From Sulfuricurvum sp. (GTDB lineage Bacteria; Campylobacterota; Campylobacteria; Campylobacterales; Sulfurimonadaceae): a stretch of 64,000 nucleotides of DNA. Made by a program: the position numbers and the translations under genes. The stretch's first letter is position 1. Every line of letters begins with the position of its first letter. This document shows, piece by piece, positions 27,091 to 51,083 of the stretch. The stretch spans positions 62,001 to 126,000 of the forward strand of contig DYMK01000003.1 in assembly GCA_020721585.1 (NCBI GenBank), given 5' to 3'. The notes under the pieces were generated by a model. It made no database searches, had not been told where the DNA came from, and saw only the letters and a list, made by a program, of their open reading frames with translations.

Positions 27091-27831
27091 GTGGCGATCA
27101 AATCGTTTTTTTATCACGGTAATGCCCTATCGCTTAGTTACGAGATACTCAATCCCAGTGGTACCACCGACATCCTTTTTCTCCATGGATGGGGATCCTC
27201 TAAGGCATTGATGAAACAAGCGTTTGGCAAAACGCTCCCCACGTTTCGCCATATTTATGTCGATTTACCGGGATTTGGGGGGAGTTCACCCCTTGATGGG
27301 TTGACCACAACCGATTATGCCGCGATTATGGGGCAATTGATGGAGGAATTGGGACTCCAAAAAACGGTTATTGTGGGACACTCTTTTGGGGGAAAAGTAG
27401 CGACGTTGCTTGATCCCCACTTGCTTGTACTGGTCGCTTCAGCGGGTATTTTAGTCCCAAAACCTTTCAAAATCCGTGCCAAAATAGCCCTCTTTAAACT
27501 CCTTAAAATCACAAAACTAACCTCCTTGCGCCGTTTCTTCGTCGCTCCCGATGCGCAGGGGATGAGTGAGGGGATGTACCAAACGTTCAAAAATGTGGTC
27601 AATGAAGATTTTAGCGCGACGTTTGGAGCCTTTACCCATCGTGCGTTGCTCTGTTTTGGGGATACCGATACCGCCACGCCTTTATGGGCAGGGGAAAAAA
27701 TAGCGCAGTTGATCAAAAATTCTCGCTTGGTGGCATACCATGGCGATCACTATTTTCTCTTTAAATCGGGTGCGTCGATTGCCGTAGAGATTGAAAAAGA
27801 GGTAGAGACCGTTGTCTCTAAAAATCCGTAA
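27091..27831 (+). CDS. Alpha/beta-fold hydrolase with repeat-derived C-terminus
   Basis: A 246-residue hydrolase starting at GTG. The oxyanion segment is FLHGWGSSKALMKQAFG, and the nucleophile elbow is VIVGHSFGGKVATLL with the serine in GHSFGG. The final His is probably in YHGDHYFLF and the acid in CFGDTDTATPLW. The substrate is unknown; the homologue in the same place in H. pylori is also poorly characterised. The last codons (KNP and stop) lie inside a 129-bp direct repeat, and the same three residues end the two cassette proteins, so this C-terminus appears to have been rewritten by an insertion. The murF gene usual at this point is absent. Confidence 0.85.
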   Translation: MAIKSFFYHGNALSLSYEILNPSGTTDILFLHGWGSSKALMKQAFGKTLPTFRHIYVDLPGFGGSSPLDGLTTTDYAAIMGQLMEELGLQKTVIVGHSFGGKVATLLDPHLLVLVASAGILVPKPFKIRAKIALFKLLKITKLTSLRRFFVAPDAQGMSEGMYQTFKNVVNEDFSATFGAFTHRALLCFGDTDTATPLWAGEKIAQLIKNSRLVAYHGDHYFLFKSGASIAVEIEKEVETVVSKNP

Positions 27832-27948
27832 TCTCTCGTCATTGCGGACACCTCTCGTCATTCCCGCGAAGGCGGGAATCCAGCTAGACTCCCGCCTTCG
27901 CGGGAGTGACGAAACCCCCTCCCCCTGAACTCGATTCAGGGTCTAAAA
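27820..27948 (+). repeat. 129-bp direct repeat, left copy
   Basis: Nearly identical to 28550-28678, with about four mismatches, beginning at AAAAATCCGTAATCTCTCGT and ending at CAGGGTCTAAAA. It contains the dRS3-like double hairpin (27854-27915) and a CCCTGAACTCGATTCAGGG hairpin. The two copies enclose the small cassette gene, giving a 730-bp repeat-to-repeat period. Confidence 0.9.
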
Positions 27949-27997
27949 AAATACGCTAAAATACGGTTATGATTTTTCCTACTGCAAGGAGACCCCA

Positions 27998-28561
27998 ATG
28001 ACTGATCAAGAACTCAAAGACCTTGTCGCAAGTTTAGCGATTTCACAAGCCAAAACCGATGAGCAGCTCAAAGAACTTAAAGCCTCCAATCAACGTATGG
28101 AAATGCTGTTAGAAAATATTGCTAACAATCAAGGCGATATTACCGAAGAATTTTTTTACAATGCCAACGACCAAGGCGATGTCGCTGAAGAGTTTTTTTA
28201 CAATTCTCTCGAAAATAAAATGAATTTAGGGGGAATCCATTACGACTTTATTGATCAAAATTGGAAAAGAAGCAATAAAGCATTATGCGATGAATTTGAT
28301 ATTATCATGGTCAATGGCAAAGATATTGCGATTATCGAAGTAAAATACAAAGCGCATGAAAAAGATTTAGAAAAGCTTTTGACCAAAAAACAAGAAAATT
28401 TTAAAGAATTGTTTCCTATTTATAAAGATTACAATCATCATCTTGCCTTAGCTTCGTTTTATATGCCTCCAGAACTCAAAGAAAAAGCGTTGGAAAATAA
28501 CGTCATTGTTCTTCAACGTAAAGGGGATGTGATGGAGACGTTTCTCCCGAAAAATCCGTAA
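27998..28561 (+). CDS. PD-(D/E)XK-like cassette protein (DUF3782-type), copy 1
   Basis: A 187-residue protein. The N-terminus (MTDQELKDLVASLAISQAKT) is a predicted coiled coil, then comes a short tandem duplication of NQGDxxEEFFYN, then a nuclease-like core. EFDIIMVNGKDIAIIEVKYK has the spaced Asp and ExK of the PD-(D/E)XK superfamily. A paralogue at 42035-42661 shares almost all of the C-terminal 130 residues. Both have GGAGACCCC before the ATG and the same 3' flank, so the mobile unit includes promoter, gene and tail. Catalysis is not shown; the fold is also common in restriction and repair proteins. A direct repeat encloses the gene. Confidence 0.75.
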   Translation: MTDQELKDLVASLAISQAKTDEQLKELKASNQRMEMLLENIANNQGDITEEFFYNANDQGDVAEEFFYNSLENKMNLGGIHYDFIDQNWKRSNKALCDEFDIIMVNGKDIAIIEVKYKAHEKDLEKLLTKKQENFKELFPIYKDYNHHLALASFYMPPELKEKALENNVIVLQRKGDVMETFLPKNP

Positions 28562-28678
28562 TCTCTCGTCATTGCGTATACCTCTCGTCATTCCCGCGAA
28601 GGCGGGAATCCAGCTAGACTCCCGTCTTCGCGGGAGTGACGAAACCCCCTCCCCCTGAACTCGATTCAGGGTCTAAAA
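28550..28678 (+). repeat. 129-bp direct repeat, right copy
   Basis: Second copy of the repeat at 27820-27948. It starts within the last codons of the cassette gene, so the KNP-stop ending belongs to both the repeat and the gene. Differences to the left copy include GCGTATA for GCGGACA and CGTC for CGCC in the second hairpin. Confidence 0.9.
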
Positions 28679-28685
28679 GAAGAGA

Positions 28686-36955: not shown

Positions 36956-37324
36956 ATGGAACGTTGGATTTTTCAAATAACCCCACAAGGATATGGTGGT
37001 GAGATTGGATGCATAGACTATGATTTACAAAATGAAAGTGAATTTGAATGGGAAGTTTATGCAAATATTAAGAATGTAAATATTGGTGATGAGATCAAGA
37101 TTCAATGTGGACTTGATCAAAGATCAAAAAAAAATAGAATATCTCAAGACGGTAAAATGGTGCCACTTTTACAAAAAGGTGTTTATTTACAAGGAGAAAT
37201 TATCAATGTTGATTACAATAAAAGAACAGTTACTTTTAGCATTAACGAGCGTTTTTTTCTTAAACCTAAGGATCCTTATAATCTTGGTCGCCATCGGGGT
37301 TTATATAACGAGTCGTCACTATGA
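36956..37324 (+). CDS. Small hypothetical protein, possibly EVE/PUA-like
   Basis: A 122-residue AT-rich gene beginning MERWIFQITPQGYGGEIG. The opening and the later EVYANIKNVNIGDEIKIQCG and GVYLQGEIINVDYNKRTVTF resemble the beta-rich EVE/PUA-type fold, which binds modified bases, but the match is weak. Its stop overlaps the hypE start (ATGA), which would couple translation. hypE normally follows other hyp genes, so this looks like an acquired gene placed next to it. Confidence 0.45.
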   Translation: MERWIFQITPQGYGGEIGCIDYDLQNESEFEWEVYANIKNVNIGDEIKIQCGLDQRSKKNRISQDGKMVPLLQKGVYLQGEIINVDYNKRTVTFSINERFFLKPKDPYNLGRHRGLYNESSL

Positions 37325-38319
37325 CCAAAACCATAACCCTCGCCCAAGGCAACGGCGGTGTTGAAAACGCTGAGTTGATTTCCAATATCTTTTATCGCCA
37401 TTTCAAAAATCCCCTATTGGAAAAAAGCGAAGATGCCGCCATCATCGATAGTGGGCGATTGGCGTTTACGACCGATAGTTTTACGGTCTCACCCCTCTTT
37501 TTTGCGGGGGGGGACATCGGAAAACTCAGTATCTGTGGCACGTGCAACGATTTGGCGATGATGGGAGCCAAACCCACCTATATGACTTGTGCGGTGATGG
37601 TCGAAGAGGGGTTTAGCATTGAAGCACTCAACACCATCGTCACATCGATGGCAAAAGAGCTAGCCATCAACGGTGCGACCATCGTGTGTGGTGATACCAA
37701 AGTGGTTCCCCGTGGGGCAGTCGATAAAATTTTTATCAATACCACAGGGATTGGGGTTGTCCAAAAAGGGGGAATCTCCTCCAACAGCGTAAGCGATAAG
37801 GATACGATCATCCTCTCCAATGACATCGGGCGACACGGTGCAACGATTTTTGCTGCCCGTGAGGGGATGGAATTTGAAAGTGATCTTAGCAGTGACTGTA
37901 CGTCCTTATGGCCGTTGGTTGAAAAGTTATTAGCTGAGGGGATTGGGATCACGGCGATGCGCGATGCGACGCGTGGAGGGGTTGCTGCGGTACTCAATGA
38001 ATGGGCGAAACAATCCAATATCTGCATTGAGGTGGAGGAAGCATCCCTCCCTGTGAGCGATACGGTGCGGGGGATTTGTGAAATTTTGGGATTTGAAGCG
38101 ACCAATCTTGCCAATGAGGGGACGTTTGTTCTTGCGGTCAAATCGCACGATGCCCCACGCGCGGTGGAGATTTTACGCACATTTGATGCGGGTCAAAACG
38201 CCGCTATTATTGCGAAGGTGACCCATCAGTATGCGGGAAAAGTGGTGCTGTTAAGTCCATGGGGGTCGAAACGGTTTATGGAACTCCCCAGTGGTGAGTT
38301 ACTCCCGAGGATATGTTAA
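37321..38319 (+). CDS. hypE: Hydrogenase maturation protein HypE
   Basis: A 332-residue AIR-synthase-like protein that dehydrates a thiocarbamate on its C-terminal cysteine to the cyanide ligand of the [NiFe] site. The chain ends PRIC, the required carbamoyl acceptor. Other family segments are LAQGNGGVENAELI, DSFTVSPLFFAGGDIGKLSI and MRDATRGGVAAVLNEWA. It works with HypF (48870-51083). hypA follows after 91 nt that hold palindromic repeats. Confidence 0.96.
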   Translation: MTKTITLAQGNGGVENAELISNIFYRHFKNPLLEKSEDAAIIDSGRLAFTTDSFTVSPLFFAGGDIGKLSICGTCNDLAMMGAKPTYMTCAVMVEEGFSIEALNTIVTSMAKELAINGATIVCGDTKVVPRGAVDKIFINTTGIGVVQKGGISSNSVSDKDTIILSNDIGRHGATIFAAREGMEFESDLSSDCTSLWPLVEKLLAEGIGITAMRDATRGGVAAVLNEWAKQSNICIEVEEASLPVSDTVRGICEILGFEATNLANEGTFVLAVKSHDAPRAVEILRTFDAGQNAAIIAKVTHQYAGKVVLLSPWGSKRFMELPSGELLPRIC

Positions 38320-38410: not shown

Positions 38411-38752
38411 ATGCATGAGTATTCAATTGTCCAAGCCCTCTTAACCCAATGCGAAGAATTAGCCCATGAAAATCAAGCCCAAGCCGTGACCAAGGTCGTG
38501 GTCAAAATCGGAAGAATGGCGGGGGTGGAACCCCATTTGCTTGAGATGGCGTTTAACACGTTTAAAGAAAAAACGGTGTGTGATGGGGCAGAATTTGTGA
38601 TGAATCTCCAACCGCTGGTGATTGCCTGCCAAGGGTGTCTGACTGTGATCGTATTGGACGAACTGTTGTATAAATGTCCTGCGTGCGAGAGTTGGGATGT
38701 TAAGGTCATTGAGGGTGAAGAGATGTTTTTAATGAGCTTAGAGATGGAGTAA
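38411..38752 (+). CDS. hypA: Hydrogenase nickel insertion protein HypA
   Basis: A 113-residue nickel metallochaperone. The N-terminal MHEYSIV carries the Ni-binding Met-His-Glu. The zinc loop has two CxxC motifs, CQGC and CPAC, around residues 75-98. It delivers nickel with HypB, which is not in the window. It is separated from hypE by repeat hairpins only, so the two were probably once tightly linked. Confidence 0.95.
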   Translation: MHEYSIVQALLTQCEELAHENQAQAVTKVVVKIGRMAGVEPHLLEMAFNTFKEKTVCDGAEFVMNLQPLVIACQGCLTVIVLDELLYKCPACESWDVKVIEGEEMFLMSLEME

Positions 38753-40907: not shown

Positions 40908-41815
40908 TGATTGCCATTGATTTGGGCTCCAATACCCTACGAATGGTGGAGTATGATGGGAAAACATGGGGCAAAACGTTTGAAAAAATCGTCCGCACTG
41001 CCCAAGGGTTGGATCACACAAGACGCATTGACCCACGCGCTATCGAACGGATTGTCTTAGCCATTGAAGAGGCAAAAACGCTCCTTGATTTTGAGGGGCA
41101 AACCATCGTCGCTGTGACCACCGCCGCGATGCGTATGGCAACCAACTCCCACGAGGTACGAGAAGTATTTTTCCAACGAACGGGGATCAATTTTAGAGTG
41201 ATTAGTGGGGAAGAGGAGGCACAACTCACCCTTATGGCGGTACAAAATCGTCTCAACGCCCTTGGGATCACGTCGCCCTCATGGGCATTGGTCGATATTG
41301 GAGGCGGTTCGACTGAGATTATTGTGGTCACTGGGGAAAAAATCGATGCCAAAAGTCTCCCTTTTGGGATTGTGACCATGAGCGAAAGCGGTGATAGTAA
41401 AGGGCGTTTGACCCTCTTTAGGGAGGCACTTTTGGAAGCACTCCCAGAAAATATCCCCAAAACGTTAGTCCTCACCGCAGGCACCCCCACGACCATGGCA
41501 GCCTATTTACACGGAATGACCTACGCAACGTATGACCCACACCGTATCAATGGAACGACGTTAAAAGCCTCGGATTGTGGAGAAATTTTAGACGCGTTAC
41601 GCGCTATGGACGAATCCACACGCGCCACATACGTAGGGGTGGGGAGAGAACAGCTTATCATTACAGGCATAGCGATGGTCGAATCTGTTTTTCATGCCCT
41701 TGGGTGCGATGAAGCAGTCGTTGTCGATGATGGGTTACGTGAGGGGGTCGCCCTTAACCATGTAAAACTAGCCTTGTCTCGCTCCCAAGCTCCAGCTTGG
41801 GAGTGTATAGGTTAG
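40907..41815 (+). CDS. Ppx/GppA-family phosphatase with displaced C-terminus
   Basis: A 302-residue ASKHA-fold exopolyphosphatase/pppGpp phosphatase. The phosphate loops are IAIDLGSNTLRMVEYDG and ALVDIGGGSTEIIVV. The last normal residues are VVVDDGLREGVALNH. Beyond this the frame runs into repeat DNA and ends LALSRSQAPAWECIG. The 44-bp end of the normal frame is repeated at 42699-42742, where it continues LNHFRNG and stop, the likely original C-terminus. The core is intact, so activity may survive, but the final residues are foreign. Confidence 0.85.
   Translation: MIAIDLGSNTLRMVEYDGKTWGKTFEKIVRTAQGLDHTRRIDPRAIERIVLAIEEAKTLLDFEGQTIVAVTTAAMRMATNSHEVREVFFQRTGINFRVISGEEEAQLTLMAVQNRLNALGITSPSWALVDIGGGSTEIIVVTGEKIDAKSLPFGIVTMSESGDSKGRLTLFREALLEALPENIPKTLVLTAGTPTTMAAYLHGMTYATYDPHRINGTTLKASDCGEILDALRAMDESTRATYVGVGREQLIITGIAMVESVFHALGCDEAVVVDDGLREGVALNHVKLALSRSQAPAWECIG
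41714..41757 (+). repeat. 44-bp direct repeat from gppA, left copy
   Basis: Identical over 44 bp to 42699-42742, and to 48 bp if one mismatch is allowed. Both begin GCAGTCGTTGTCGATGATGG. This copy is inside gppA; the other restores the gppA frame to a natural stop. The pair marks both ends of an insertion of about 985 bp. Confidence 0.92.
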
Positions 41816-41904
41816 TTTGCATTCCCAACAAGAACGATAGAAGAGCTGGATTCCCGCCTTCGCGAGAATGACGAGATTTTGTCACCCTGAACGTGTTTCA
41901 GGGT
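41782..41904 (+). repeat. Cluster of three palindromic repeats
   Basis: CTCCCAAGCTCCAGCTTGGG (41782-41801, pairing continues to 41803), a half-copy of the dRS3-like element around 41844-41876 (ATTCCCGCCTTCGCGAGAAT), and ACCCTGAACGTGTTTCAGGG starting at 41884. Three different repeat families stacked in 120 bp at the left end of the cassette. Confidence 0.8.
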
Positions 41905-42034
41905 CTAAGATTATGGCGGTGAACAATCTCAATGTTGGGGTGTTCTTTGATGGAACGGGTAAATTACGCTTGCAACATACCCGGTGTATACTTTATGATA
42001 AAATATCCTTACTATTTCCCCCAAGGAGACCCCA

Positions 42035-42661
42035 ATGACCGATCAAGAGCTCAAAGACCTTGTCGCAAGTTTAGCGATTTCGCAAGCCAAAACAGATGCT
42101 CAGATGAGAGAGACCGATGCGCAGATGAAAGCATTGCGAGAATCGCAAGCCAAAACGGATGCTCAAATGCAAAAAACCGATGAACAGATGAAAAAAACCG
42201 ATGAACGTTTTGAAGACCTCAGAGCATCCAACAAGCGTATGGGAATACTCTTAGGAAACATTTCCAACAACCAAGGCGATGTCGCCGAAGAGTTTTTTTA
42301 TAATTCATTGGAAGATAAAAAAGATTTAGCAGGGATTCATTACGACTTTATCGATAAAAACTGGAAAAGCAGTACCAAAAATTTGCGTGATGAATTTGAT
42401 ATAGTGATGGTCAATGGCAAAGATATTGCGATTATCGAAGTAAAATACAAAGCGCATGAAAAAGATTTAGAAAAACTTTTGACCAAAAAACAAGAAAATT
42501 TTAGAGAACTGTTTCCCATCTATAAAGACTATACGCATCATTTGGCACTTGCTTCCTTTTATATGCCTCCAGAGCTAAAAGAAAAAGCATTGGAAAATAA
42601 TGTCATTGTCTTACAGCGCAAAGGGGATGTGATGGAGACGTTTATCCCTAAAAATCCGTAA
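42035..42661 (+). CDS. PD-(D/E)XK-like cassette protein (DUF3782-type), copy 2
   Basis: A 208-residue paralogue of the protein at 27998-28561. The N-terminal coiled coil is longer, built from repeats of QAKTDAQMRETDAQMK, while the C-terminal 130 residues are nearly the same, including EFDIVMVNGKDIAIIEVKYK with the Asp and ExK spacing. Both end PKNP and share AAGGAGACCCC before the start and the same 3' flank. The N-terminal repeat number differs between copies, pointing to slippage. It sits inside the gppA insertion. Function unknown; nuclease fold inferred. Confidence 0.75.
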   Translation: MTDQELKDLVASLAISQAKTDAQMRETDAQMKALRESQAKTDAQMQKTDEQMKKTDERFEDLRASNKRMGILLGNISNNQGDVAEEFFYNSLEDKKDLAGIHYDFIDKNWKSSTKNLRDEFDIVMVNGKDIAIIEVKYKAHEKDLEKLLTKKQENFRELFPIYKDYTHHLALASFYMPPELKEKALENNVIVLQRKGDVMETFIPKNP

Positions 42662-42698
42662 TCTCTCGTCATTGCGTATACCTCTCGTCATTCCCGCG

Positions 42699-42742
42699 GC
42701 AGTCGTTGTCGATGATGGGTTACGTGAGGGGGTCGCCCTTAA
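42699..42742 (+). repeat. 44-bp direct repeat from gppA, right copy
   Basis: Second copy of 41714-41757. It continues in the gppA frame as NHFRNG and a TAA at about 42759, so it preserves the original 3' end of gppA. Confidence 0.92.
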
Positions 42743-42838
42743 TCATTTTCGCAACGGTTAACCTTTAAGTTGCCTCACGTTCTGATCGTCTGGATTGATT
42801 TTTAACAAGCAAACATCACCCATAAAAAAGGAAAAACC

Positions 42839-45265
42839 ATGCGTATTGTTATCGTAGGAGGGGGAATTGCGGCGGTGTATCTTGCTAATGCCCTAAGCAT
42901 CCAACCCCAATGGGAAGTGGTCATCGTCTCTGAAGAGGAGTTTCCCCCATACGACCGTATCCATCTGTGTGGTTTGGTGGATCATTCTAAAACCCTTGAT
43001 GCGATCACCTTGCATCTTAATCCCCGTGTCCGCGTGGAATTGAATCAAAAAATCACCGCCATTGACTCAACTGCAAAGCGGGTTTTAAGTGACCATGCCG
43101 CATTTCATTACGATAAACTCATTATCGCCACAGGGTCTAATCCTAAATCGCTGTTTGATATTTCCCACATTGATAATGCCGCTACGTTTCGCAGTGTTCA
43201 TGATTGTGAGCGGATTGCCAAGGGGATGGTGGATAAAAATGTGGTCATTGTGGGGGCAGGGCCTATCGCGTTGGAACTGCTTGATACGCTGATGAAAAAC
43301 GATGCTGCCAAAACCATCACCCTCATTGTCCGCAGTGACTATCTCTATTCGCGGGAGTTAAATCCCCTCTCGATTGCGTTGATACGTACTATTTTTGAAT
43401 CTGATCCCCGTATTACCATCGATTTTAATGATGCCATTGTCGATCGTGAACTTTTAGAAGGGAAGATTTATCGTATCTTGACTAAAAAAGGGAGGGTCAT
43501 CGAGGATCCTTTTCTTATTTTCGGGGTAGGAATTGATCCCAATATTGCCTTTGCCCGTGAGACCTTGGCGTGTGATAAAGGGGTTTTGGTCAACGCTTTT
43601 ATGCAAACTTCGGATGAGAATATTTATTGTGTCGGAGAAGCTGCGCAACTACGGGAGGGGGGATTTATCGCCGGACGGGTCAAAGAGTGTACGATGCAAG
43701 CCCACGTCGCCATCGCCCATCTTTTGGGGAAAGAACCCCAGTTTAAACCTGCGGTTACGATGGATGGACTTAAAGTGGGATCGTTTTTGTTTGCCGATTT
43801 GACCGCTCCTGATTTTAACCCCAAAGACCCCCATAACGAAACGATCTTGCTCTCTCATGCTGACCGAATCGATCAGTACATTGTCAATAATGATCGTCTC
43901 AAGCGGTTTATTGGGATCAATACCAATACCAATTTGTTGAAACTCAAATCACTTATGGAGCAAGACGACCCCATCGATGTGGGCTATTTTTATTCCAATC
44001 GTGTGATGTCGGAAAATGGGCGGTTGGTGTGCAGTTGTGAGGGGGTGCATGAACAAGAGTTGGTGAAGATTATTCGCGAGCATGGGGTCACCTCATTTGC
44101 TGAGCTTGAACCCTTTTCCACAGCAGGACGGACGTGCGGACGGTGCAAACATGACGTGTGCGCCCTTATCGCCGCCACCCCCATTGACCCCAAAGAGGCA
44201 TTAGAACGTAAACGCGCCCAAGAAGCCTCAGCCAAAGAAGGCAAGCTTGCCATGGTGCGGGAACGTATTGCCAAATACAACCGTATCCACCCCCAAAACC
44301 AACTCAGTGGGGAAAATCTCCAAGAGGCATTGGATTCCTTTGAGATGCGTCACGAATTTAATCGGTGGATTTCGATGGTGACCGCATCGATGCACTTGCA
44401 TCCTGACTACGAAGAGGTGGTCAAAGAAGGGGTGACCAATCTCAATAAAATCCCCATTATTTGGTTGGAACTTTCCGATTGCAGCGGTAACTCCGAAGCG
44501 TTTATCAAAACGTCGCACCCTACCGTCGATGATCTGATCCTCAAATACCTTTCGTTGGATTACCATGAGTTGCTTATGGCAGGATCGGGAGATCAGTCCG
44601 AAACCGCCCTCGATGCGATACTGCACAACGATCACGGAGCGTATATTCTCATCGTTGAGGGGGCGGTACCCTTGGGACTGGAAGGGAAATTTTTGCGCAT
44701 TGGTGCGAAGGGGGAGACGGGATTAGCCTTGCTTGAACGGGTCGCTTCGGGGGCGGCGGCGGTCATAGCGTTGGGGTCGTGTGCGTATGATGGTGGGGTA
44801 GTGGCAGCTGCACCCAATCCCACCGGTGCGGTTGGCGTTGCCCAAGCACTGCATCGAACCGATATTATCAATCTCCCCGGATGTCCGACCAATCCGATCA
44901 ATGTCGTAGGGACACTGTTGCACTATATCATGTTTGAGGAGTTTCCCAAACTGGATGAAAAAAACCGTCCCCAATGGGCATACAGCTTTAGAATTCACGA
45001 TAACTGTGAGCGCAGAGGGCATTATGATATGGAAGAGTTCGTCCGTGAATGGGGTGATGAGGGGGCGAAAAAAGGGTGGTGTCTGTTCCAAATGGGGTGC
45101 AAAGGACCCTACGCCAATCTCAATTGTTCTTTGGTGAAATTCAATGAGGGGACCAGCTGGCCTGTCCAAGTGGGACATGGATGTTTTGGGTGTGGTGAGG
45201 GGAAAATTGCCTTTGACCACTACGCCAACAATCGACCTTTGGAGGAAAAATCAGATGAAAACTAA
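42839..45265 (+). CDS. Flavoprotein/[NiFe]-hydrogenase small subunit fusion
   Basis: An 808-residue cytosolic fusion. Residues 1-390 form a two-dinucleotide-fold oxidoreductase (VIVGGGIAAVYLANAL, IIATGSNPKSL, VVIVGAGPIALELL, IYCVGEAAQL). A BFD-like [2Fe-2S] domain follows with C398, C400, C433 and C436 (CSC...CGRC). A charged linker leads to a hydrogenase small subunit from about 535 (SCAYDGG, LPGCPTNP, IHDNCERRGHYD, CLFQMGCKGPY, GHGCFGCGEG). The usual proximal CxxC is CSGN at 548-551, so Asn replaces the second Cys ligand. There is no Tat signal. The likely role is electron transfer between H2 and a nucleotide or quinone via flavin. Its end overlaps the large-subunit gene by 11 nt. Confidence 0.9.
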   Translation: MRIVIVGGGIAAVYLANALSIQPQWEVVIVSEEEFPPYDRIHLCGLVDHSKTLDAITLHLNPRVRVELNQKITAIDSTAKRVLSDHAAFHYDKLIIATGSNPKSLFDISHIDNAATFRSVHDCERIAKGMVDKNVVIVGAGPIALELLDTLMKNDAAKTITLIVRSDYLYSRELNPLSIALIRTIFESDPRITIDFNDAIVDRELLEGKIYRILTKKGRVIEDPFLIFGVGIDPNIAFARETLACDKGVLVNAFMQTSDENIYCVGEAAQLREGGFIAGRVKECTMQAHVAIAHLLGKEPQFKPAVTMDGLKVGSFLFADLTAPDFNPKDPHNETILLSHADRIDQYIVNNDRLKRFIGINTNTNLLKLKSLMEQDDPIDVGYFYSNRVMSENGRLVCSCEGVHEQELVKIIREHGVTSFAELEPFSTAGRTCGRCKHDVCALIAATPIDPKEALERKRAQEASAKEGKLAMVRERIAKYNRIHPQNQLSGENLQEALDSFEMRHEFNRWISMVTASMHLHPDYEEVVKEGVTNLNKIPIIWLELSDCSGNSEAFIKTSHPTVDDLILKYLSLDYHELLMAGSGDQSETALDAILHNDHGAYILIVEGAVPLGLEGKFLRIGAKGETGLALLERVASGAAAVIALGSCAYDGGVVAAAPNPTGAVGVAQALHRTDIINLPGCPTNPINVVGTLLHYIMFEEFPKLDEKNRPQWAYSFRIHDNCERRGHYDMEEFVREWGDEGAKKGWCLFQMGCKGPYANLNCSLVKFNEGTSWPVQVGHGCFGCGEGKIAFDHYANNRPLEEKSDEN

Positions 45266-46940
45266 AAAAATTATCATTGACCCCATTACCCGTATTGAGG
45301 GGCATTTGCGGATCGAAGTGGAAATCGATGAGGACAATATTATCCGTGAAGCATGGGCTTCGGGACAACTGTTTCGGGGGATTGAGACCATTTTACAAGG
45401 GCGTGACCCCAGAGATGCGGGACTCATCGCCCAACGTATTTGTGGGGTGTGTACCAACGCCCATTATCGCGCCTCTATCAGTGCTGTGGAGGAGGCGTAT
45501 GGGATTGTTATCCCTCCCAATGCCGAGATTATCCGTAATCTGGTCACCCTCTCGCTGTTTGTCCAAGACCATATCGTCCACTATTATCACCTCCATTCGC
45601 TTGATTATGTCGATATTACCAGTGCGCTTGGTGCCTCGTGTGCCAAAGCCCAAGAAGAGGCGCATCGCTATTGCGCTTCTCCGTATCGTAATTCGGTCGA
45701 GCATTTGGAAAATGTCCAAGAAAAACTGACCAACTATGTCAAAGCAGGACGGTTAGGACTCTTTGCCAATGGGTATTGGGGTCATGAGGCGTATCGTCTT
45801 ACCCCTGAGCAAAACCTAATCCAGATGAACCACTACCTCGAAGCGCTCACCATTCAGCGGGATATTTCCAAAGCGATTGCGATTTTTGCGGGCAAAACAC
45901 CCCATCCCCAAAATCTCGTCGTAGGGGGGGTGACCAGTGTGGCGGAGATCCTCAATCCCCAACGGCTCAATGACTTTTTATTTATCATCAAAGAGGTGCG
46001 AGAATTTATTTCCCGTGCCTACATCCCCGATATGGTGATGATGATTGACGCGTATCGTGAGAGTATCCACACAGGTGAGGGGCGCGCGAGTGGAAACTTC
46101 ATGGGGTGTGGCGGCTACCGTTTTTCCCATGGGGGGACACTGTTTGAATCAGGGGTGATTAAAGGGCATAATTTTGACCGTATCGACCCCTTTGATGCGA
46201 CCAAAATCACCGAAGAAGCGTCCCGTTCGTGGTACGAAAACGATGCACCACTCTCCCCCTACGAGGGGGAAACCACCCCTTTTTATACCGATCTCAATGA
46301 CGATGGTTCCCTAAAAACCCACGGAAAATACACATGGGTCAAAGCCCCCCGTTATGAGGGAGAGGTAATGGAAGTAGGACCTCTTGCACGGATGATGATC
46401 GGATATAGCAAAAACTCCCCCGCGATTGTCCCCTACATGGAGGCGTTTATGAAGCGGTCTACTATGAAATTGATCGATTTTTCGACCACCATTGGGCGCA
46501 ATGCTGCCCGCGCGGTCGAGGCACAACTGTGTTGCGATTACCTCTTTGATATGATGAGCGATTTGATCGAAAACGTCAAATATTTCGATGAGACCACATG
46601 GAGCAAATACGTCTTTGAATCACTCCCCCAATCCTCCCAAGGGGCAGGAATTTTTGAAGTACCACGCGGGGTATTGGGACATTTTGTCAAAATCGAAGGG
46701 GGAAAGATTGCCAATTACCAAGCAGTCGTCCCCACCACATGGAACGCTTCCCCCAAAGATGCCCGCAATCAACGGGGGGCGTATGAAGCATCCCTTATTG
46801 GTCTGCGCTTAGCCGATCCCACCCAACCGCTGGAAGTGTTACGCACCATCCATTCGTTTGATCCGTGTTTGGCGTGCGCGGTACACGTGATCGATGCTAC
46901 AGGCAAAGAGCTAGCACGGTATAAAATCGCAACGCCGTAG
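45255..46940 (+). CDS. [NiFe]-hydrogenase large subunit
   Basis: A 561-residue catalytic subunit. The N-terminal nickel motif is RICGVCTNAH and the C-terminal one DPCLACAVH, giving four Cys ligands. After the final His a 17-residue tail (VIDATGKELARYKIATP) remains to be removed by a maturation protease not seen here. I start at the ATG at 45255 (MKTKKIIIDPITRIEG), which overlaps the fusion gene. It resembles uptake-type group 1/2 enzymes (VVGGVTSV, GGCGGYRF-like regions), but the partner architecture rules out a periplasmic group 1 enzyme. The start lacks a signal peptide, as normal for large subunits. Confidence 0.95.
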   Translation: MKTKKIIIDPITRIEGHLRIEVEIDEDNIIREAWASGQLFRGIETILQGRDPRDAGLIAQRICGVCTNAHYRASISAVEEAYGIVIPPNAEIIRNLVTLSLFVQDHIVHYYHLHSLDYVDITSALGASCAKAQEEAHRYCASPYRNSVEHLENVQEKLTNYVKAGRLGLFANGYWGHEAYRLTPEQNLIQMNHYLEALTIQRDISKAIAIFAGKTPHPQNLVVGGVTSVAEILNPQRLNDFLFIIKEVREFISRAYIPDMVMMIDAYRESIHTGEGRASGNFMGCGGYRFSHGGTLFESGVIKGHNFDRIDPFDATKITEEASRSWYENDAPLSPYEGETTPFYTDLNDDGSLKTHGKYTWVKAPRYEGEVMEVGPLARMMIGYSKNSPAIVPYMEAFMKRSTMKLIDFSTTIGRNAARAVEAQLCCDYLFDMMSDLIENVKYFDETTWSKYVFESLPQSSQGAGIFEVPRGVLGHFVKIEGGKIANYQAVVPTTWNASPKDARNQRGAYEASLIGLRLADPTQPLEVLRTIHSFDPCLACAVHVIDATGKELARYKIATP

Positions 46941-46956: not shown

Positions 46957-47035
46957 CCTATAATTTTTATTTTCTTTGATGCCCTTTCTTTGGCTGAAAG
47001 AATAAAACCCCCATTTGGAAAAGGATGACTTTAAG

Positions 47036-47659
47036 ATGACGATAGAGCAAGCAATACAAGCATTAGCACAAAAATATGCAGACACTTTAAAACATCAAAT
47101 TAATGATAGAACGGAAGAGATGAAAGGTGATGATAAATCACATTATTTGGTTTATCACGTTTTAGGAGTAACCGATGAAGAGGGTCATTTAATTGATTTA
47201 TATCAAAATAAAGGGCGTTTTTTATACAAATACGCAGGTTCATTTTTAGAAGAAGCGACAAAGCTATGTTTTTTACATAAATTTCCTGAATCTGCTACAA
47301 CTAAAATAACAAATACTTTAGGGACACGTCCAAAAACGTTTGAAATTGATTGTTTAGAAGGGAATAATGCCATAGAGATAAAATGGCGAGATGCCACAAC
47401 GGATGGTGACCATATAACAAAAGAACATACAAGAATTAGAGTAATTCATGCGGCAGGGTATACTCCCATTAGAGTAATGTTTTATTATCCCAATCGAGAA
47501 CAAGCTATGAAAATTCAAAGTACCTTAGAAACTCTTTATAAAGGTATTGGAGGTCACTATTATTATGGAGATAGTGCTTGGTATTATGTAAAAGATAGAA
47601 CGGGTATCGATTTAAAAAATATTTTAGAAAAAATTGCTAAAGAGAATACTGGAGCATAA
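47036..47659 (+). CDS. ApaLI-like type II restriction endonuclease
   Basis: A 207-residue AT-rich protein resembling the ApaLI family, whose reference enzyme cuts GTGCAC. The PD-(D/E)XK core is FEIDCLEGNNAIEIKWRD, with Asp105, Glu114 and Lys116. The gene starts at ATG 47036 after AAAAGGA; a TTG seven codons upstream is possible. A methyltransferase follows 2 nt after the stop. The target site is inferred only from family resemblance. Confidence 0.75.
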   Translation: MTIEQAIQALAQKYADTLKHQINDRTEEMKGDDKSHYLVYHVLGVTDEEGHLIDLYQNKGRFLYKYAGSFLEEATKLCFLHKFPESATTKITNTLGTRPKTFEIDCLEGNNAIEIKWRDATTDGDHITKEHTRIRVIHAAGYTPIRVMFYYPNREQAMKIQSTLETLYKGIGGHYYYGDSAWYYVKDRTGIDLKNILEKIAKENTGA

Positions 47660-47661
47660 CA

Positions 47662-48852
47662 TTGGAAAATGTTTTACAAGGTGATTGCCTAGAACTTTTA
47701 CAAGCGTTTGAGGATAATAGTATTGATTTAATCTATTTGGATCCCCCTTTTTTTACTAACACCATACAAAAACTGACAACAAGAGATGGAAGTAAAGAAT
47801 TTTCCTATAAAGATATGTGGAAAAGTAATGAAGAATATGCAGAGTTTTTGTATTACCGATTAGTTGCATTAAAAAGAGTACTCAAAGAGACAGGAAATAT
47901 TTTCGTCCATTGTGATAGAAATTCTACACATATTGTGAAAATGCTTTTAGATGATATTTTTGGCGTAGAACACTTTCAATCGGAAATTATTTGGTATTAT
48001 AAGCGATGGTCAAATTCAAAAAAAGGTTTGCTACCTTCCCATCAAACGATCTATTTTTATTCAAAAACGTCATCTTTTACCTTTAATACGCTTTACAATA
48101 ACTATTCAGAAACAACCAATGTAGATCAAATTTTACAAAAAAGAACCAAAGACTATCAGGGTAAAACAGTCTATGCACGTGATGAAAATGGCAATACCAT
48201 AAATAGTGATAGTAAAAAAGGGGTTCCTTTAAATGATGTTTGGGAAATACCCTATTTGAACCCAAAAGCCAAAGAGAGAGTGGGATATCCAACCCAAAAG
48301 CCAATCGTATTATTAGAAAAAATCATTGACATAGCGTCAAATGAGGGTGATACAATACTTGATCCTTTTTGTGGCAGTGGCACAACGTTAGTTGCTGGAA
48401 AATTAAAAAATAGAAACGTCATTGGTATGGATATTTCAGACGATGCGATTCAACTAACACGGTCAAGATTGGATAATCCCATTAAAAGTGAATCAAATTT
48501 GCTTAAAAACGGAAAAGAATCGTATAAAAATAGTGATCTCCTTGTTGAAAAAATTTTACACGATATAGACTATATTCCCGTTCAAAGAAATAGAGGTATA
48601 GATGCAATATTAAAGAAAACGTATCAAAATAGCCCCATATTGGTACGTATCCAAAAAAAGGATGAAACACTGCAAGAAGCGATTAAAAAACTCACGAATG
48701 CAATAAAAGTTAAGCATTCCAAAAAATCATTTTTAATACGAACCAATGATATAGAATCATTATTGGAATATGATATGGTTGATACTAAAATAGAAATCAT
48801 CAATGCCACCTCGTATGGATTCAAAAAACTTTTAAATAATACAAATTTTTGA
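47662..48852 (+). CDS. DNA methyltransferase, beta class (cognate of the ApaLI-like nuclease)
   Basis: A 396-residue N4-cytosine or N6-adenine methyltransferase. DPPF at 27-30 (IDLIYLDPPFFTN) precedes the SAM motif ILDPFCGSGTTLVAGKLKNR (around 232-251), the beta-class order. The C-terminal 120 residues are an extra domain of unclear role. TTG is the most likely start, 2 nt after the endonuclease stop. The pair would protect and cut the same site. The gene is AT-rich and inserted between the hydrogenase and hypF. Confidence 0.9.
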   Translation: MENVLQGDCLELLQAFEDNSIDLIYLDPPFFTNTIQKLTTRDGSKEFSYKDMWKSNEEYAEFLYYRLVALKRVLKETGNIFVHCDRNSTHIVKMLLDDIFGVEHFQSEIIWYYKRWSNSKKGLLPSHQTIYFYSKTSSFTFNTLYNNYSETTNVDQILQKRTKDYQGKTVYARDENGNTINSDSKKGVPLNDVWEIPYLNPKAKERVGYPTQKPIVLLEKIIDIASNEGDTILDPFCGSGTTLVAGKLKNRNVIGMDISDDAIQLTRSRLDNPIKSESNLLKNGKESYKNSDLLVEKILHDIDYIPVQRNRGIDAILKKTYQNSPILVRIQKKDETLQEAIKKLTNAIKVKHSKKSFLIRTNDIESLLEYDMVDTKIEIINATSYGFKKLLNNTNF

Positions 48853-48869
48853 TTTTTGACTGTGGCACA

Positions 48870-51083
48870 ATGAAACAGTACTCTCTTACCATTCAAGGAT
48901 TAGTCCAAGGGGTAGGGTTTCGCCCGTTTGTCTATCGTGAAGCCCTTGCCCATGGAATTCGGGGATGGGTTAAAAATACCCCACAAGGGGTCATCATTAA
49001 GGCACAAGGGGAACACTCCGAAGCCTTTGTTAATGCCCTGCGTACCCATCTTCCCCCCAATGCCCGTATCGATTCGATGGAGATTAGCCTCTTGGAGGGG
49101 GAGGTTTATACCGATTTTACCATTCGTGAGAGTGTAGTGGGTGAAGGGGGTGTTACGATTCCACTGGATCGTGCCTTATGCCCTGCGTGTGAGGCGGAGA
49201 TGGACGATCCCCACAATCGCCGTTACGCTTATCCGTTTATCAACTGCACCGACTGTGGCCCGCGCTATACGATTCTCCACACTCCTCCCTACGACCGTGT
49301 TCGCACCTCGATGAATACGTTTGGGATGTGTTTGGCATGCGCAAGCGAATACACCGATCCCACCTCACGATGCTATCATGCCCAACCCATCAGTTGTCCC
49401 CAGTGTGGCCCACAGCTTCGTTTTTTGAATCATCAGGGCAATGTTCTCTCAGGTGATCCCATCGATCATGCCATCACGATGCTCAAGGAGGGGAAGATCA
49501 TCGCCCTCAAAGGGCTGGGGGGATTTCATCTGATGTGCGATGCGACCAATGATGAAACGGTAGGAGAGCTACGAAGACGAAAGCACCGTAAAGCAAAACC
49601 GCTTGCGGTGATGTTTGGTTCACTCGAACAGCTTGAAACGTATGTATCGATCAATGAGGTGGAAAGAAACCATATCACGGGTTCTATCAAGCCTATCGTG
49701 ATCGTTGATGCAAAAGCTGGGACAAGCTTATCCCCTCAGATTGCTCCCCATATTCAAAGATTAGGGGTATTCCTCCCCTACACCCCGCTTCATCGGTTGT
49801 TATGTGAGCAGATTGATTTCCCTCTCGTTGCCACCAGTGCCAATATCAGTGACGAACCCATTATCGTCTCGTCTGATGCGCTGTTGCACTCGCTTAGTCA
49901 CGTGGTAGAGGGGATTCTTGACCATAACCGCCCGATAGTAAATGCCCTTGATGATGCGGTGATTCAGATTGCCGAGGATCGGGTGGTGATGTTGCGTCTG
50001 GGTCGAGGGTTTGCACCCCATACGTTTCCCTTGGCGCGATCAATCACGCAATCCATACTTGCCTTAGGGGCACACCAAAAAAGCGCCATTGCGTTGGGAG
50101 ACCACACGACCATGGTCTTAAGCGGTCATATCGGCGATTTGGGGAGCATTGAAGCCGATGGGTATTTTGACCAAACGATTGAAACGGTGTTGCGGTGGTA
50201 TCAGTGTACCCCCTGCCTCCTTGTCCACGATCTTCATCCGCTTTACTCCTCGACCCGTTATGCCCACCATCAACCCTCTGACCATTATGGGGTACAACAC
50301 CATTACGCCCATATTTTGGCGTGCATGGCAGAGTATGGCTTGGATGAAACGGTACTGGGCTTTGCGTTCGATGGGACAGGATACGCAGCGGATGGAACGT
50401 TGTGGGGGGGAGAGGTGATGATTGCCACGCTCCATGGCTATGAGCGGATCGGTCACCTTAAACCTTTTGCCCTGCTGGGGGGAGAAAACGCGATCAAAGA
50501 ACCGCGACGGATTGCGTTGTCATTGCTGTTTGAGAGTTACACTCTCGATGAAGTGATACGTCTAAAATCCCCGACGGTGGAAGCCTTTTTACCCCATGAG
50601 ATCCGAACGCTTCACCATATGTGGTTCAAAAATATCAACGCTCCCCGAAGCTCATCAATGGGGCGATTGTTTGATGCGGTTGCTTCCTTGGGGGGATTTA
50701 TTCAGACGTTGGAGTATGAGGGTCAGGGGGGGATGATGTTGGAAGCGTTTGTGAAGGATTCTATAACAGAGCCGTTTGCTTTTGAGGTAAATGATGGGAT
50801 AATCAATCTCTCGCCGATGGTTTTGGAAATCATCGCTTTAGAGGGGGATAAAACACAAATCGCTAGCCGTTTTATCGCTACGGTCGTGGCGATGATAGCG
50901 CATTTTGTTCACCGCTATCCCCATCTCCCCATTGTGATTGGGGGAGGAGTTTTTCAAAATCACGCGCTTATGCGTCGCCTCTATCGCCGCTTCGGTGAAG
51001 GAGCGTTTTATGCCCAACAGCAAACGCCGATCAATGACGGCTCGATTGCTCTCGGTCAGCTTTATTATGCGATACACAATTAA
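48870..51083 (+). CDS. hypF: Hydrogenase maturation carbamoyltransferase HypF
   Basis: A 737-residue protein that makes the carbamoyl group for the CN ligands of the [NiFe] site. In order: acylphosphatase-like domain (LTIQGLVQGVGFRPFVYREA), two zinc fingers (CPACEAEMDDP and INCTDCGPRYTI; CLACASEYTD and ISCPQCGP), a YrdC-type domain (KHRKAKPLAVMFG), and a Kae1-like domain (HHYAHILACMAE, FAFDGTGYAADGTLWGGE). I start at the ATG at 48870; an in-frame TTG seven codons earlier is possible. It is placed just behind the restriction-modification insertion and shows core-like base composition. Confidence 0.95.
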   Translation: MKQYSLTIQGLVQGVGFRPFVYREALAHGIRGWVKNTPQGVIIKAQGEHSEAFVNALRTHLPPNARIDSMEISLLEGEVYTDFTIRESVVGEGGVTIPLDRALCPACEAEMDDPHNRRYAYPFINCTDCGPRYTILHTPPYDRVRTSMNTFGMCLACASEYTDPTSRCYHAQPISCPQCGPQLRFLNHQGNVLSGDPIDHAITMLKEGKIIALKGLGGFHLMCDATNDETVGELRRRKHRKAKPLAVMFGSLEQLETYVSINEVERNHITGSIKPIVIVDAKAGTSLSPQIAPHIQRLGVFLPYTPLHRLLCEQIDFPLVATSANISDEPIIVSSDALLHSLSHVVEGILDHNRPIVNALDDAVIQIAEDRVVMLRLGRGFAPHTFPLARSITQSILALGAHQKSAIALGDHTTMVLSGHIGDLGSIEADGYFDQTIETVLRWYQCTPCLLVHDLHPLYSSTRYAHHQPSDHYGVQHHYAHILACMAEYGLDETVLGFAFDGTGYAADGTLWGGEVMIATLHGYERIGHLKPFALLGGENAIKEPRRIALSLLFESYTLDEVIRLKSPTVEAFLPHEIRTLHHMWFKNINAPRSSSMGRLFDAVASLGGFIQTLEYEGQGGMMLEAFVKDSITEPFAFEVNDGIINLSPMVLEIIALEGDKTQIASRFIATVVAMIAHFVHRYPHLPIVIGGGVFQNHALMRRLYRRFGEGAFYAQQQTPINDGSIALGQLYYAIHN

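Follow-up and report, generated by a model that had tools for sequence, protein, structure and literature searches.

A hydrogenase small subunit fused to a flavoprotein in Sulfuricurvum and other Campylobacterota: a candidate soluble H2:NADP+ oxidoreductase

The fused gene and its genome

The window analysed here is a stretch of 64,000 nucleotides from the genome of a Sulfuricurvum sp. At 42839-45265 on the forward strand it carries one uninterrupted open reading frame that runs from ATG to TAA without internal stops and encodes 808 amino acids, in which a flavoprotein, a [2Fe-2S] domain and the small subunit of an [NiFe] hydrogenase follow one another in a single chain. The features of the locus, in window positions, are as follows.

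37321..38319, + strand: maturation gene of hypE type, assigned from its sequence alone; its homologue adjoins hypA in other loci
38411..38752, + strand: hypA maturation gene (PF01155, 5e-30)
42839..45265, + strand: fused flavoprotein-BFD-hydrogenase small subunit, 808 aa (Pfam, NCBIfam, 50 distinct full-length homologues)
42839..43717, + strand: FAD/NAD(P) reductase module, residues 1-293, with a BphA4/putidaredoxin reductase fold (Pfam Pyr_redox_2, AlphaFold with pLDDT ~90, Foldseek)
42968..42970, + strand: codon of Cys44, invariant in the 50-fusion alignment; Ser in NirB and NorW
43331..43333, + strand: codon of Arg165, an NADP(H) signature (50/50); NADH-type relatives have an acidic residue here; aligns with R176 of the T176R mutants of BphA4 and with VR of E. 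coli Gor
43688..43690, + strand: codon of Cys284, invariant in the 50-fusion alignment
44024..44173, + strand: BFD-type [2Fe-2S] domain, residues 396-445, with C398, C400, C433 and C436 (Pfam Fer2_BFD; four Cys in 50/50)
44321..44443, + strand: linker, residues 495-535; its counterpart in exported HydA is the region of the Tat signal (TIGR00391, HydA alignment)
44447..45262, + strand: [NiFe] hydrogenase small subunit, residues ~537-808 (Pfam, alignment, 50 homologues)
45255..46940, + strand: [NiFe] hydrogenase large subunit (PF00374, 4.7e-200; nickel-ligand motifs L1 RICGVC and L2 DPCLACAVH)
48849..51083, + strand: hypF maturation gene (HypF domains)

Pfam places Pyr_redox_2 at residues 1-293 (5.5e-39), Fer2_BFD at 396-445 (4e-9), Oxidored_q6 at 548-695 (7.7e-26) and NiFe_hyd_SSU_C at 715-790 (1.1e-25). 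The best NCBIfam models are those of the HydA and Hyd-2 families, and TIGR00391 (hydA) reaches 357.7 bits (cut-off 179.5). The domain order, coordinates and cysteine positions given in a preliminary description of this locus agree with Pfam, NCBIfam and an alignment of 50 homologues. That description set the small subunit at about residues 535-808; the domain is present, but its core starts at about 537, and residues 495-535 form a linker.

The last 11 bp of the fusion gene overlap the large subunit gene, whose product has the kind of C-terminal tail that a maturation protease removes. No cytochrome b gene was found among the fusion's neighbours in the window. Further genes on the same contig encode HypD, a GTPase of HypB type (CobW/HypB/UreG), two HyaD/HybD-type proteases and a NicO-like protein. 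A DNA methyltransferase gene and a gene for an ApaLI-like restriction endonuclease (PF09499, 8e-99) interrupt the hydrogenase cluster at 47015-48852, between the large subunit and hypF. The stretches 41714-42746 and 27805-28681 each hold one of a pair of related nuclease-like genes (at 42035-42661 and 27998-28561), flanked by direct repeats of 48 nt (98%, spacing 985) and 147 nt (94%, spacing 730) respectively; they look inserted with duplication of the flanks and are possibly a small mobile unit.

In the genome from which the window comes (G000, 99.9% complete), a PF00374 search returned the large subunit in the window alone. A PF01058 (Oxidored_q6) search returned nothing but the fusion and one 200-aa protein, which is taken as NuoB type. 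The fusion and its large subunit are the sole [NiFe] hydrogenase found in this genome. PntB was not found there either, by a search that detects it in control genomes. Likewise, no group-1-type large subunit other than the partner of the fusion was found in four further genomes (G001, G009, G035 and G312). The fusion thus persists, and its maturation machinery with it, in the absence of a respiratory hydrogenase.

Distribution, cluster ligands and origin

A full-length fusion was found in 38 of the 397 Campylobacterota genomes sampled; one further copy is interrupted by a TGA (G351) and another is truncated where its contig ends (G417). The interrupted copy belongs to family f9 (G351:C1:28841-33193, L103), where the TGA is in frame and the large subunit gene still lies downstream. 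The six weakest matches (~30% identity, ending near residue 450) are taken as NirB-type, on the inspection of one of the six. The homologue search that the preliminary description called for yielded 50 distinct full-length fusions of the same layout, 51-77% identical to the window copy. Families f1, f4, f6 and f9 of the survey and also f12 carry the fusion, at least five Campylobacterota families in all, which bears out the suggestion that related layouts exist elsewhere in the phylum. Because full-length, stop-free copies recur in many independent assemblies, the fusion is neither a product of chance nor an assembly error, and a frameshift separating the domains is excluded. The gene is under strong purifying selection: dN/dS is ~0.06 for the sole unsaturated pair, G009-G020 (dN 0.05, dS 0.87), and dN is low in every domain; for the window copy, where dS is saturated, dN alone was used. 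Across the 50 fusions, 194 residues are invariant.

Contrary to what the preliminary description had implied, the layout is not new. The fusion was first described in 2006 in Thiomicrospira crunogena XCL-2 (Scott 2006, as cited in PMC4744846), and later in S. kujiense, which belongs to the same genus as the window copy, and in S. autotrophica, Sulfurovum AR and Arcobacter nitrofigilis (PMC4744846; PMC6501319). A published tree joins the XCL-2-type hynL with epsilonproteobacterial sequences, S. kujiense being among the most similar (PMC4744846). The group 1b hydrogenase of XCL-2 (Hydrogenovibrio crunogena, cluster I) has a small subunit of ~810 aa with a pyridine-nucleotide-disulfide oxidoreductase part and an adjoining group-1b-type large subunit, and it lacks both a Tat signal and a cytochrome b gene. 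The window pair shows the same traits: 808 aa with Pyr_redox_2, Fer2_BFD and the small subunit, no RRxFxK, no cytochrome b gene, and a large subunit with RICGVC and DPCLACAVH. Comparing the two by published description, I found no difference of kind.

Residues of the small subunit were assigned to clusters by the established hydrogenase numbering. All 50 fusions have C548, N551, C648 and C682 at the proximal cluster, H720, C723, C748 and C754 at the distal cluster, and C763, C782 and C785 with P775 at the medial cluster, the last as in [3Fe-4S] enzymes. Ten of the eleven standard FeS ligands are therefore invariant, and the eleventh is changed from Cys to Asn; the second Cys of the four-Cys proximal cluster of standard HydA is Asn551 in every fusion. 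I rejected this substitution as a trait unique to the fusion, because it is common to 23 Tat-exported HydA. The exported HydA of Campylobacterota (L088-L091, L115-L144) fall into two sets by proximal motif: 23 Tat-bearing members have CAGN[ST]E (families f1, f4, f6, f7, f9 and f18), and 11 have CTGCSE (families f11, f14, f16 and f19). In genera g25 and g35 there is also a second HydA-like small subunit, ~42% identical over the core, in a frame of ~500-600 aa with ~200 extra residues (for example G151:C8:8775-9716 and G080:C1:151253-152179).

The 23 CxGN-bearing proteins include those of genus g18, taken to be Sulfurimonas, and judging from the members examined, the HydA of S. denitrificans probably carries the proximal Asn as well. 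In that species, H2 uptake by the membrane fraction has been ascribed to the periplasmic group I enzyme (PMC4584964). A proximal cluster of three Cys and one Asn in a respiratory hydrogenase would merit spectroscopy.

These ligands bear on whether the fusion works at all. Hansen and Perner read its non-conserved motifs as a sign that FeS clusters may not bind, and neither soluble nor membrane fractions of XCL-2, whose known hydrogenase cluster is the one with the fusion, took up H2 (PMC4744846). The missing uptake is the strongest fact contrary to the function proposed below. It would fit an enzyme that is inactive, is a sensor, or is active only under conditions not yet known. The cluster I enzyme is still considered a possible soluble hydrogenase under other conditions (PMC6501319). 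With ten of eleven ligands kept and the Asn shared with exported HydA, the published doubt about FeS binding is weakened. Strong purifying selection and retention with maturation genes where the fusion is the sole hydrogenase also speak against loss of function, and I consider all three of these readings together quite improbable.

The exported HydABC (group 1b) of Sulfurimonadaceae, Sulfurovaceae and their relatives have homologous subunits, the small ones being 45-49% identical to the fusion, and share its CxGN proximal motif and the Pro at the medial cluster. Exported HydA differs in having RRxFxK and a C-terminal hydrophobic tail, in lacking the flavin and BFD modules, and in the cytochrome b-type gene that adjoins the pair. 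As the preliminary description had noted of the Tat signal, RRxFxK is missing from the fusion, and so are the twin Arg, the hydrophobic core and the C-terminal hydrophobic tail. Its linker (EENGIDRREFMKWASATTAMLML...) can nevertheless be aligned to the stretch of HydA that comprises the N-terminal extension and the Tat signal (DSFEM-RHEFNRWISMVTASMHL...), and the alignment to TIGR00391 begins with profile position 16, in the twin-Arg region, at fusion residue 503. The linker thus looks like a decayed Tat signal. In a small-subunit tree the fusions group together (88/71; in 86% of bootstrap trees) beside exported HydA. As this support is moderate, and long branches lead to the E. coli and group 2 sequences, I claim no closest HydA clade. 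Probably the fusion arose from a group-1 small subunit, Tat-exported and attached to the membrane, that lost both its export and its anchor and was joined behind an FAD-[2Fe-2S] unit of the NirB/ferredoxin-reductase type.

The flavin module and its electron acceptor

The FAD positions (G7, G9 and G266-E267), the NAD(P) Rossmann positions (G139, G141 and E146) and the four BFD cysteines are invariant in all 50 fusions. NirB, too, begins with an FAD/NAD domain followed by a BFD [2Fe-2S] domain, and its model TIGR02374 matches residues 3-447 with 137.5 bits, far under the family cut-off of 578. The match ends at 447, and the hydrogenase small subunit stands in place of the siroheme/[4Fe-4S] domain of NirB. 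An AlphaFold model built from a shallow alignment of 16 rows is good for the FAD and BFD parts (flavin pLDDT ~90), and Foldseek matches the flavin part best to putidaredoxin reductase and BphA4, which pass electrons from NAD(P)H to [2Fe-2S] ferredoxins. These enzymes take the same NAD(P)H/FAD/[2Fe-2S] electron step, but those of the BphA4 type work with a separate [2Fe-2S] protein and draw electrons from NADH, whereas in the fusion the cluster is part of the chain and electrons are thought to come from H2. In the same model the small-subunit half is poor (pLDDT <50 over most of it); I accordingly dropped a model-based electron path and claim no cluster distances.

Just past strand two of the nucleotide fold, all 50 fusions have V, A, S, I or L and then Arg165. 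Here NADH-type relatives have an acidic residue (HVIE in NirB, TLID in NorW), and an acidic ribose-binding residue occurs in none of the 50. The fusion therefore has the basic residue after beta-2, in place of Glu or Asp, that marks NADP(H)-linked flavoproteins of this fold. The same V-R step is found in the NADPH-specific glutathione reductase (Gor) of E. coli (HLFVRKH), whose VRKH is the 2'-phosphate binding motif; the second Arg of that motif is without an invariant counterpart in the fusions. In a PDB sequence search, T176R mutants of BphA4, which were reportedly engineered to accept NADPH, score 70.7-71.6 bits against 68.0 for the wild type, with Arg165 aligned to their Arg176. Arg at this position is also present in some nitrite-reductase-like relatives. 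An invariant Arg where NADP phosphate is bound makes NADPH the likely product.

A hydrogenase coupled instead to NAD(H), equivalent to HoxFUYH in function though built differently, would suit the intact Rossmann motif. The nearest solved relatives include NADH-dependent ferredoxin reductases, and the XCL-2 authors assumed coupling to NAD(H) from an 'NADH-binding site' (PMC4744846). Set against this are the invariance of Arg165 and the lack of any acidic ribose-binding residue in the 50 homologues, which leave NAD(H) an unlikely partner.

The preliminary description had left the acceptor as NAD(P), a quinone or a sulfur compound. Arg165 favours NAD(P), and NADP specifically. That the flavin site might serve polysulfide or persulfide, quinone, or a carrier of the flavodoxin/ferredoxin type is suggested by the sulfur-metabolising lineages that host the fusion, by CoA-disulfide and persulfide reductases among the structural relatives in Foldseek, and by Cys44 and Cys284 of the flavin module, whose invariance is without explanation. 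Both are present in 50/50 fusions and missing from aligned NirB and NorW. The catalytic Cys of CoA-disulfide/persulfide reductases, however, aligns with Ile41, in a loop where the alignment is remote, which tells against polysulfide or persulfide. As a candidate for that active site, Cys44 is unsupported, lying three residues past the aligned Ile41. A rhodanese domain, a membrane segment and a partner gene with a quinone site are all absent, and the NAD(P) motif is intact; an acceptor other than NAD(P) is consequently improbable.

Hydrogen, NADPH and the Ech-type neighbours

The explanation that best covers these observations is that the fusion and its large subunit form a soluble cytoplasmic H2:NADP+ oxidoreductase. 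Taken as a whole, with its electron path, origin and role, I hold this to be somewhat more probable than all other readings together. The soluble, flavin-linked hydrogenase that the preliminary description proposed is supported by the domains, by the loss of the Tat motif and membrane tail, and by the ferredoxin-reductase-type fold; its activity is a prediction, and the path, the acceptor NADP+, the direction and the physiological role are what I infer. H2 would be split at the large subunit, and electrons would travel along the three clusters of the small-subunit domain (proximal, medial, distal) to the BFD [2Fe-2S] cluster, then to FAD, and as hydride to NADP+. At modest H2 the reaction of H2 with NADP+ is close to equilibrium and can go either way, and the chain would probably reverse with excess NADPH or scarce H2. 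Hydrogenases of groups 3b and 3d (HoxFUYH; sulfhydrogenases) share the presumed cytoplasmic reaction of H2 with NAD(P)+; they differ in belonging to another hydrogenase group and in using a NuoE/F/G-like diaphorase, and no such model is among the fusion matches listed.

The proposed oxidoreductase probably serves as a source of NADPH for CO2 fixation and biosynthesis. Some relatives have an Ech-type hydrogenase beside it, which would provide reduced ferredoxin from the same H2. Ech-type, complex I-like genes adjoin the fusion and its large subunit in six of the 19 loci examined with long flanks. They lie upstream of the pair in G010, G016, G312 and G332, and in G093 with one gene between, and downstream in G327. 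In G010 a ferredoxin-type gene overlaps the start of the fusion by 4 bp, and in G327 an antiporter-type gene begins 4 bp past the large subunit. The Ech large subunit retains RVCGLC and DPCMSC, and the other Ech subunits are supported by Pfam. In families f1, f6 and f9 the pair and the Ech-type hydrogenase are apparently one operon, and two gene orders in three families suggest a functional link. Possibly, although I would sooner expect otherwise, the fusion (giving NADPH) and Ech (giving reduced ferredoxin) draw on one cytoplasmic H2 pool as an anabolic unit for the reductive TCA cycle in free-living Campylobacterota, while genomes like that of the window, with the fusion alone and no respiratory hydrogenase, would use H2 purely for biosynthesis.

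Judged by the literature searched, where absence is no proof, the following appear to be new: the assignment of the flavin module to the NADP type, the inventory of cluster ligands, the linker as a decayed Tat signal, the operon shared with Ech, and the genomes that have the fusion as their sole hydrogenase. Since 2006 this fused hydrogenase has been without an assigned reaction and suspected of being inactive. The sequence evidence that it is conserved, under selection and NADP-type, together with genomes in which it is the sole [NiFe] hydrogenase, makes the old question directly testable. If the proposal is true, the compact enzyme would be of interest for NADPH regeneration, and free-living Campylobacterota could turn H2 into NADPH in a single step, with an architecture that differs from that of the known NAD(P)-reducing hydrogenases.
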